From Bifidobacterium crudilactis (GTDB lineage: Bacteria; Actinomycetota; Actinomycetes; Actinomycetales; Bifidobacteriaceae), in assembly GCF_000738005.1 (NCBI RefSeq), contig NZ_JHAL01000001.1:245108-309107 (forward strand): a stretch of 64,000 nt of DNA, given 5' to 3'. Made by a program: the position numbers and the translations under genes. Position 1 is the stretch's first letter; each line of letters begins with the position of its first letter. The notes under the pieces were generated by a model, which saw nothing but the letters and a program-made list of their open reading frames with translations, made no database searches and had not been told where the DNA came from. Below, in pieces: positions 8,225 to 64,000 of this stretch.

Positions 8225-8303
8225 ATGAGATAACTGCAATAAAAGGACAGCAATTCGGTGATAATCCTCCCGTAAAGCTGTCCTTTTATTGCAGTTATCT
8301 CAT
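8225..8303 (+). repeat. Dispersed palindromic element, copy 1
   Basis: Perfect 27-bp arms at 8225-8251 and 8277-8303 flank a 25-nt loop (8252-8276). The inner part of each arm is AAAAGGACAGC or its complement. The loop reads AATTCGGTGATAATCC and ends GTAAA. It lies between the convergent trpG/pabA-like gene and pknB. Four more copies with matching stems and loops occur at 26073, 26407, 50930 and 62756. There is no U-tract; a terminator, REP-like or mobile-element role is open. Confidence 0.85.
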
Positions 8304-26072: not shown

Positions 26073-26142
26073 GATACCTGCTTCAACAGGACAGCCTCAT
26101 CGGTGATTTTCCGACGAAAACTGTCCTGTTGAAGCAGGTATC
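26073..26142 (+). repeat. Dispersed palindromic element, copy 2
   Basis: Perfect 22-bp arms (26073-26094 and 26121-26142) with a 26-nt loop containing TCGGTGATTTTCCG. It is the most diverged copy: the stem reads GATACCTGCTTCAACAGG before ACAG, yet the opposite arm carries every complementary change. It lies between the hydrolase gene and the facing small membrane protein gene. Confidence 0.82.
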
Positions 26143-26406: not shown

Positions 26407-26477
26407 GATAACTGCACTACAAGGACAGCAATGTGGTGATAATTTCTCCGCAAAGCTGTCCTTGTAGTGCAGTTATC
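26407..26477 (+). repeat. Dispersed palindromic element, copy 3
   Basis: Perfect 23-bp arms (26407-26429 and 26455-26477) around a 25-nt loop containing GTGGTGATAATTTCTCCG. Stem and loop match copy 1 in the same orientation, with matched changes in both arms. It lies between the ABC gene stop at 26499 and the upstream region of the small membrane protein gene. Confidence 0.85.
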
Positions 26478-44630: not shown

Positions 44631-44733
44631 CGTTTGTGTAGGGATTTTCATGTATATGGCGAAGTTTTTGGCGCCAAACCGCCATCGTCCATGCGCGTGG
44701 TCGGGCGTGTCCAAAACAATCCCTACACAAACG
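44631..44733. mobile_element. Miniature element with 16-bp terminal inverted repeats, copy A
   Basis: The ends CGTTTGTGTAGGGATT (44631-44646) and its exact complement (44718-44733) bound 103 bp of non-coding DNA. The same ends, with one mismatch, bound 115 bp at 54360-54474. The interiors differ. No obvious target duplication was seen. It lies between htrA and the reductase gene. It is called MITE-like; a large stem-loop regulator is an alternative. Confidence 0.55.
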
Positions 44734-50929: not shown

Positions 50930-51000
50930 GATAACTGCACTAAAAGGACAGCTTTTCCGGTGAAGTATCACCGAATTGCTGTCCTTTTAGTGCAGTTATC
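50930..51000 (-). repeat. Dispersed palindromic element, copy 4 (inverted orientation)
   Basis: Perfect 23-bp arms (50930-50952 and 50978-51000). The 25-nt loop reads, on the minus strand, AATTCGGTGATACTTC, aligning with copy 1. It sits between the adhesin and the convergent glycosyltransferase gene. Confidence 0.85.
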
Positions 51001-51069
51001 GTATTAGATGGGTTATTACCTGCCAAAATGCGAAGAACCGGATTGTTTGTGGACGTTCTGACGGGTCTA

Positions 51070-62674: not shown

Positions 62675-62703
62675 CCTCTGACACCAAGCGTGTCAGGGGT
62701 TTT
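62675..62703 (+). terminator. Rho-independent terminator of purA
   Basis: CCTCTGACAC pairs with GTGTCAGGGG (one G-U pair) around a 5-nt loop, followed by TTTT. Confidence 0.85.
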
Positions 62704-62755
62704 CGTCATTCAAGAGACTTCCGGGCTGTTTGGCGTGAAAAGGACCGCAGCATAC

Positions 62756-62826
62756 GATAACTGCACTAAAAGGACAGCTTTTCCGAGAAACTATTACCAA
62801 ATTGCTGTCCTTTTAGTGCAGTTATC
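62756..62826 (-). repeat. Dispersed palindromic element, copy 5 (inverted orientation)
   Basis: Perfect 23-bp arms (62756-62778 and 62804-62826), stems identical to copy 4. The 25-nt loop read on the minus strand (AATTTGGTAATAGTTTCTCG) aligns with the other loops. It sits between purA and the permease gene, both on the plus strand. Confidence 0.85.
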
Positions 62827-62957
62827 TCTGCCGCTCAATAGGTGACGAGTCGTTCGGCAATGTTTCCAATCGGCGTTCTCCGTAATATCCGAGAAATATT
62901 GGTGCAACCAGATAAGGACTTCCGTCTTTTAGGTTAAAGCCCATCGGAGGGAGCCAT

Positions 62958-64000
62958 ATGATTGCATATGTTTCAAAGAGGAGAGTGCTTCGCCCTGCCC
63001 TGATGTGCGTTGGGTTGGCGATTGCCCTTATGGTCTTGCTGTTTGGTGTGAACCCAGTGACCGCGAACGCCGCGGAAGCAGTCGAGACGTGTAATCCCAC
63101 AAGTGAAATCGCTTGTGTGAACGGCGTGCTGCAGGATTCGGCGAAAGCCCCTATCGCAGGTGTCGAGGTCACGCTGGGAGGGGCCGAAAGCGCGACCGCG
63201 ACAACGGACGCTTCGGGGAAATGGGCGTTTTCGGTCACTGCGGATGGCGAGTACACGGTTTCGATACCTGCGTCCGTTGTGCAAGAGCACGGTCTGAAAG
63301 CGGACACCGCAACCGTCGACGTCAAAAAAGGCGATTTCAGCAAAGCGCGGCGGGTGGTGAGATTCGACGAAGTGCAGGCGTCGTCGGAGGCTTCCTCCGG
63401 CAGCAAGGCTTCTTCGGATACCGGAAAGTCGTCGGAATCCGCATCATCGACGGCGGAGGGGCCCAGCGCCTTCTCGACCTTCATGTCTCGCTTCTGGCAG
63501 CAGTTGTTCAGTGGAGTCATTTTCGGCCTGATGCTTGGACTGATGTCGGTAGGCATGAACCTCGTCTACGGAACGACGAAGCTGAGCTCCTTCTCACACG
63601 GCGAGCAGGTGTCTCTTGGTGGTCTGATGGCGTATGTCGGCACGCAGCTGCTGCACTGGCCCCTGGTGGTTTCAGCGATATTCGCGGTGGCGGTCGGAGC
63701 GTTGACCGGTTGGATTCAGAACGAACTCGTATGGAGCCCCTTGCGGCGTAAGCGCGTCGGTCCAACGCAGCAGATGATCGTGACCATCGGTCTGTCCATG
63801 GCCTTGCAATATGTGTTCCAGTTCTTCTTCGGAGGCGATGTCAAGGGCATCACCACCACAGTCCCCAAAGGATTCCAGATAGGTCCGATCACGACCGATG
63901 CGACGACGCTCGTACTGGCAGGTATCGCGCTTGCGGTAATCATCGCCTTCACGTTGTTCCTCTACGGCACCAGACTCGGCAGGGCGACTCGTGCGGTCTC
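62958..64000 (+). CDS. LivH-type branched-chain amino acid ABC permease with extracellular N-terminal domain (partial)
   Basis: At least 347 codons; the gene runs off the window. ATG at 62958 has GGAGGGAG upstream. Residues 1-38 look like a signal sequence or anchor (ending TANAAEA). A beta-rich domain (about 45-118) with a carboxypeptidase-regulatory-like pattern (GVLQDSAKAPIAGVEVTLGG, then TDASGKWAFSV) and a Ser-rich linker follow. The LivH permease begins near residue 155 (GLMLGLMSVGMNLVYGTTKLSSFSHGE). An outside domain fused to such a permease is unusual; it could help capture substrate. Confidence 0.85.
   Translation, partial: MIAYVSKRRVLRPALMCVGLAIALMVLLFGVNPVTANAAEAVETCNPTSEIACVNGVLQDSAKAPIAGVEVTLGGAESATATTDASGKWAFSVTADGEYTVSIPASVVQEHGLKADTATVDVKKGDFSKARRVVRFDEVQASSEASSGSKASSDTGKSSESASSTAEGPSAFSTFMSRFWQQLFSGVIFGLMLGLMSVGMNLVYGTTKLSSFSHGEQVSLGGLMAYVGTQLLHWPLVVSAIFAVAVGALTGWIQNELVWSPLRRKRVGPTQQMIVTIGLSMALQYVFQFFFGGDVKGITTTVPKGFQIGPITTDATTLVLAGIALAVIIAFTLFLYGTRLGRATRAV

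Follow-up and report, generated by a model that had tools for sequence, protein, structure and literature searches.

Five long palindromes lie dispersed over a 64,000-nucleotide stretch of the Bifidobacterium crudilactis genome (the window), and where one copy differs from another in the stem, the difference is found in both arms. What kind of element these palindromes are, and what keeps their arms alike, are the questions addressed here. A first-pass annotation, made from the sequence alone, had suggested a REP/MITE-like or RNA-structured element located just past gene ends, and had attributed the matched arms either to selection on folded RNA or DNA or to copying as a unit. The five palindromes were found where it had placed them, with the perfect arms and the loops listed in Table 1, and with the loops of copies 1–3 oriented on one strand and those of copies 4 and 5 on the opposite strand. 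Eight places in the window have perfect arms of at least 14 bp and a loop of 3–80 nt, five of them being these copies, and the pattern GGACAGC-N22..30-GCTGTCC occurs four times compared with a mean of 0.01 in 100 shuffles. The only Rfam matches above the gathering score in the window were two tRNAs, with none on the palindromes. A further inverted repeat at 44631–44733, whose perfect 16-bp arms are separated by 71 nt (CGTTTGTGTAGGGATT), is unrelated to the palindrome family.

Table 1. Palindrome copies and adjoining features in the window
Feature	Position	Strand	Structure	Context
Copy 1	8225–8303	+	arms 27 bp, loop 25 nt (8252–8276)	flanked by glutamine-amidotransferase (GATase) and PASTA-kinase (PknB-like) genes that converge on it
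Copy 2	26073–26142	+	arms 22 bp, loop 26 nt; old arm type (TTCAACAGGACAG)	convergent alpha/beta hydrolase gene on one side; on the other, a small gene with no Pfam match
Copy 3	26407–26477	+	arms 23 bp, loop 25 nt	past ABC transporter gene end, upstream of small gene
Copy 4	50930–51000	−	arms 23 bp, loop 25 nt; the loop contains a perfect inner hairpin (GGTGATACTTCACC)	flanked by SpaA/pilin-like and mannosyltransferase-like genes that converge on it
Module flanking copy 4 on one side	51001–51039	+	ends in ISL3-terminal-repeat-like sequence (51018–51039)	
Ordinary hairpin followed by TTTT	62675–62704	+		upstream of copy 5, which is not the first terminator-like site past the adenylosuccinate synthetase gene
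Copy 5	62756–62826	−	arms 23 bp, loop 25 nt	downstream of the adenylosuccinate synthetase gene (151 bp from its stop)

The palindrome family and its setting

The five palindromes in the window are members of a dispersed repeat family of a known, REP/MITE-like kind. The whole-genome search on which the first-pass annotation had made its proposal depend found the core AGGACAG-N20..32-CTGTCCT at 100 places in the 2,362,816-base genome (100 exact matches per strand) and none for the reversed control, and a covariance model found further copies, giving at least 150 matches over both strands. Covariation of the arms also extended genome-wide, the observed level being reached in 0 of 500 shuffles and the slid controls lying far lower. 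The 111 copies measured are either 71 nt (92 copies) or 70 nt (19 copies) long, with 23-bp arms and a loop of 24–25 nt; lengths of 66–74 nt were accepted in this measurement, the pattern that yielded most of the copies accepted 20–32 nt between the inner boxes, and the set leaves out five unrelated palindromes, locus L048 and at least six more copies that exist in this genome. Perfectly paired 23-bp arms are present in 66 of the 111, and 51 carry the exact modal arm (GATAACTGCACTAAAAGGACAGC) on both sides. Mean identity between the 71-nt copies is 95 % in the arms, 60 % in the loops, for which the loose consensus is AATTTGGTAATAATTTCTCCGAAAA, 33 % in the near flank (12 nt each side) and 26 % in the next 13 nt outward. 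The outer GATAACTGC makes up a large share of the arm's least variable portion. Decayed, older-looking copies that have TCA-type arms with GGACAG are found both in this species and in a second one, represented by genome G004. Degenerate single arms adjoin the full copies in the flanks of L018 and L021, as if elements had landed beside older ones.

When genes were predicted with our own codon-usage gene caller, 44 of the 111 copies were convergent, 58 tandem and 7 divergent in context, one was inside a called ORF and one was unassigned; of the 47 junctions called in the window, 6 are convergent, 34 are tandem and 7 are divergent. At the median, the copies lie 35 bp from a gene 3′ end and 175 bp from a gene start, and 46 of the 59 copies classed as tandem in the distance analysis are nearer to the end of the upstream gene. 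Likewise, the 44 copies in G004 divide into 19 convergent, 21 tandem and 4 divergent, with medians of 17 bp to 3′ ends and 147 bp to starts. The high copy number and the gene-end distances support a dispersed REP/MITE-like family near gene 3′ ends. Within the window, the claim that all copies lie just past a gene end needs correcting for two of them, in that copy 3 follows the end of one gene only, with the start of a small gene on its other side, and copy 5 lies behind an ordinary terminator-like hairpin; it overlaps the stop of a doubtful minus-strand ORF (62822–63556) that was not picked by the gene caller and has no Pfam match. The same gene end is found beside seven copies (L002, L009, L038, L059, L080, L082 and L103, of which L009 is copy 4 of the window), and so they were duplicated together with that end. 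The loop has the same orientation as the gene in 30 cases and the opposite orientation in 29.

Many copies were found only in this genome and in G004 when 27 genomes of the genus were searched with one covariance model (R2), G011 giving two hits. With a second model (R1) at an E value of 0.01, there were four matches in G011 and two in G018, and none in 35 of 39 genomes, while a search of 189 genomes of the family at an E value of 1e-4 with stricter filters returned only this genome, G004 and one hit in G181. That single hit (L307, E value 1.4e-8), in another genus of the family, is a hairpin with repeated GGGCGATA motifs. In G004, elements of the same 71-nt build occupy 44 places, and their inner stem frequently differs, reading GATAACTGC(A/G)ATAAAAGTGGAG. 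The closest named relative seen was B. psychraerophilum (kinase 87 %), in which model R2 gave two hits, one with a related GATAACTGC arm, and in which no element was present at the eight junctions inspected, of eleven matched, or at the junction of copy 1. A tree of 1,080 columns gave a three-way split without order, and is compatible both with loss of the family from B. psychraerophilum and with its original absence there. Different long palindromes lie past the same genes in B. santillanense, B. ramosum and G018 (L135, L180 and L283), with two or three copies at L135 and at L180. The genus Bifidobacterium may commonly harbour palindrome families that are specific to single lineages.

Possible termination, and selection on RNA or DNA

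Read from either strand, the element consists of an A-tract, inner stem, loop, inner stem and T-tract. The statement in the first-pass annotation that no U-tract lies inside the palindromes needs qualifying, in that TTTT follows the inner stem, within the 3′ arm, on both strands in 83 of the 111 copies, and is missing on one or both strands in the other 28; the corresponding number in G004, where a few rows are misframed by one base, is 25 of 44. At least three T in four positions were present on both strands in 106/111 copies here and 35/44 in G004. The accessible part of a study of B. breve describes bidirectional terminators at convergent genes as polyA-stem-polyT structures (PMC5746004). 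Using a strict home-made scan, other terminators were found to be rarer at element-bearing gene ends (1/126 versus 9/134, P=0.02 pooled), the depletion not being significant within either class (convergent, P=0.25; tandem, P=0.28). In relatives, a perfect hairpin of at least 10 bp lies within 350 nt past the kinase gene that adjoins copy 1 in 41 of 52 named Bifidobacteriaceae loci, with differing sequences, compared with 0 of 52 for control stretches inside the kinase gene, which are coding and not intergenic. The 52 loci came from 63, of which 53 were chosen and one with runs of N was dropped, the rest being duplicate, cut-off or non-bifidobacterial. B. psychraerophilum falls outside the 41, with a hairpin of only 8 bp past the kinase gene.

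From the A-tract/T-tract layout, the smaller number of other terminators and the hairpins past the kinase gene of relatives, we infer that a role in termination is plausible, and the palindromes are probably bidirectional terminators at gene ends. Against this reading, 28 copies here and 19 of the 44 in G004 do not have TTTT on both strands, and copy 5 comes after an ordinary terminator-like hairpin. In addition, the loop of 24–25 nt is long for an intrinsic terminator, and neither the conserved outer GATAACTGC nor the nearly fixed loop length would be needed or explained by termination alone. RNA folding gave terminal loops mostly of 3–13 nt, with two of 17 nt, and covariation inside the loop was weak, the best of the 253 column pairs tested having a z of 4.5.

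When long stems show compensatory change, selection on RNA is the usual interpretation. The mismatches in the arms include 24 G-U and 20 A-C when counted by the strand of the loop, and 9 G-U and 14 A-C on the transcribed strand of the 59 tandem copies. The proposal of selection on folded RNA hence gained no specific support, and selection on RNA only was rejected because G-U mismatches are not in excess over A-C. Since there is no preference for G-U pairs, the arms may also be important at the DNA level.

Inherited sites and changed arms

The sites shared by the two species make it possible to separate descent, seen in the flanks and some of the loops, from homogenisation, seen in the arms. 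Of the 44 copies in G004, 19 are flanked on one or both sides by genes that match the neighbours of a copy in this genome, both sides matching in 11. An ortholog beside an element here was found for 20 of 55 gene 3′ ends that adjoin an element in G004 but for only 1 of 65 other ends (P=2e-7), and from this excess it follows that many sites were inherited. Copy 2 is the sole window copy among the 19 shared junctions, and both of its flanking genes match; for copy 3, the orthologous transporter end in G004 has no element within 300 bp (44 G004 places checked).

The inner stem differs between the species, being GGACAGC here versus GTGGAGC in G004. When orthologous copies were compared in 17 of the 19 shared pairs (two were left out on account of unequal length), the loops were found to share an identity of 0.50 versus 0.42 when permuted (P=0.001), and the arms showed no excess (0.749 versus 0.749). 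In the later analysis, from which L130 and L272 were set aside as misframed by one base, 16 well-framed pairs gave 0.51 versus 0.43 for the loops (P=0.0009) and 0.772 versus 0.771 for the arms; the loop signal is carried by four of these pairs, and the other 12 gave 0.437 versus 0.435 (P=0.47). Three pairs (L121/L087, L117/L065 and L274/L055) have flanks and loops that can be aligned. In the clearest, L121/L087, both align closely, and at five base pairs the two arms have changed together with pairing retained; in L274/L055 the G004 copy is of the decayed old type and the copy here combines perfect modern arms with a recognisable old loop. Over the nine well-framed pairs in which both flanking genes match, 33 of 207 base pairs differ between the species on both arms while being paired in each, 154 are identical and 20 lack pairing in at least one species. 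Copying as a unit, as the first-pass annotation had offered, accounts for part of the covariation, namely that between subfamilies, but not for orthologous pairs in which flanks and loop align and yet both arms are different. The best reading is that the arms have been homogenised within each genome, by a mechanism that we infer as follows.

We give about an even chance to the explanation that this is a REP/MITE-like family kept at gene ends as likely bidirectional terminators, with arms homogenised genome by genome. Transcribed from either side, the element would serve convergent and tandem genes as a bidirectional terminator or 3′-end hairpin, a role that would keep it in place. Template switching between inverted repeats would maintain the identity of the two arms of one copy, and the arms of different copies would be homogenised by short recombination or template-switch tracts; these would stop where homology stops, at the loop and the flanks, giving rise to a species-specific arm dialect. 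The accessible portions of two papers describe template switching as homogenising the arms of inverted repeats and as able to invert the spacers between them (PMC8604942; PMC8794818). Inversion of the loop between the species gave no overall signal (reversed identity 0.40 versus 0.42 permuted). The loops of one pair, L125 (1510–1580) and L079 (1506–1576), match at 0.68 reversed versus 0.44 forward, a possible loop inversion. Homologous recombination over 23-bp arms with about five mismatches would be inefficient, and a dialect shared across copies calls either for copies to exchange sequence or for a binding factor that they have in common. It is possible, though we hold it only tentatively, that both arms of palindromes inherited at fixed gene ends are rewritten in place, in step throughout the genome, by a trans-acting recogniser or by arm-limited conversion, the loop and flanks being spared.

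A rather unlikely alternative is that the arms are paired inverted sites, with a 25-bp spacer, for a DNA-binding or DNA-processing protein with a species-specific preference, and that the hairpin is incidental. Arms that are 95 % identical beside loops that are 60 % identical, the almost invariant loop length, the lack of a G-U bias and the in-place change of dialect in the clearest shared pairs would all fit such sites, but the protein remains hypothetical, the preference for gene 3′ ends is left unexplained and many parallel fixations would be needed at each shared site.

Mobility and comparison with known systems

The family has terminal inverted arms and no coding capacity, 71 nt being too small for a transposase, as expected of a MITE. 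A module of approximately 40 bp ending in GCGAAGAGCC adjoins 27 of the 111 copies, on one side only, and none of 221 control flanks. Its sequence, GTATTNGG(TGG)NCCTTACACGCCAAAATGCGAAGAGCC, resembles an ISL3 terminal repeat, and it matches the terminal repeats of the single PF01610 (ISL3) element of this genome at 17 of 22 positions at one end and 16 at the other. The module is absent from the inherited copies (0/18 versus 27/93, P=0.006), and an ISL3-type end may therefore have taken part in the spread of the newer copies here. On the other side of the module-bearing copies, no second ISL3-like repeat stood above the level of shuffles within 700 nt. Target-site duplications were not convincingly above control, exact direct repeats of at least 4 nt being found in 0/111 copies and of 3 nt in five (none in one shifted control), and the best 8-mer flank match of the 27 module-bearing copies averaging 5.04 versus 4.81 in the control, with one exact 8-bp case, L037. 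Similar module ends are found in G014 and G018, at some loci beside unrelated TCTCGAG-type palindromes.

These elements could be purely selfish MITEs or REPs tolerated only past gene ends, their arm types recording successive bursts and their shared junctions reflecting repeated insertion into safe sites. The one-sided module with its bias away from shared copies, the decayed copies with other arm types, and loops without a trace of common descent in 12 of the 16 well-framed shared pairs are what this would predict, but 20 of 55 shared ends versus 1 of 65 are many for chance safe sites, three pairs (L121/L087, L117/L065 and L274/L055) have alignable flanks and loops, and target-site duplications are not convincingly above control. 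We therefore regard it as improbable. Elements driven by a RAYT, like REPs and REPINs, are also palindromic, extragenic and of high copy number, and the REP classes described next to orthologous RAYT genes differ between related strains (PMC3686654, accessible part), but this origin is very improbable, as the RAYT-like or IS200-like transposase that the first-pass annotation had suggested looking for did not turn up, no Y1_Tnp (PF01797) match being found in the 27 genus genomes, this one included, while 5 of 14 control genomes matched, and as the outward flanks seem to favour GTATT or TC over the GTAG/CGTC tag (PMC3733652, accessible part). The commonest outward trinucleotides at the foot of the palindrome are GTA (45/222), TCC (23) and TCA (22).

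No report of such a family in Bifidobacterium was returned by searches of open-licence PMC papers, and the accessible parts of two surveys (PMC12306157; PMC2267715) make no mention of the genus. The likenesses to known systems that follow draw, where papers are cited, on the portions of them that were accessible. REPs and REPINs with their RAYTs (PMC3116915; PMC3686654) are, like the present family, short extragenic palindromes of high copy number with classes that differ between related strains; here, in contrast, the genomes of the genus that were searched yielded no Y1 transposase, the unit is one 71-nt hairpin with a large loop, and orthologs are kept with changed arms. The bidirectional intrinsic terminators of B. 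breve (PMC5746004) have the same A-tract, stem and T-tract at convergent ends, but are not presented there as a repeat family, whereas here more than 100 copies share their arms and a loop of 24–25 nt. SPRITE, RUP and BOX of Streptococcus pneumoniae (PMC10969869) are likewise dispersed MITE-like repeats, and SPRITE is terminator-like; the likeness is one of description, and a change of arm dialect at shared sites is not mentioned in that account. An ISL3-family insertion sequence resembles the one-sided flank module in its terminal repeat, and not the arms of the palindrome. The EFAR repeats of Enterococcus faecalis are also small and palindromic, and a role as bidirectional terminators between convergent genes has been proposed for them. 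What is unusual in the present palindrome family is that inherited positions are combined with homogenised arms, and this makes two ideas testable: the concerted evolution of dispersed palindromes, and palindromes as a genome's own set of bidirectional terminators.
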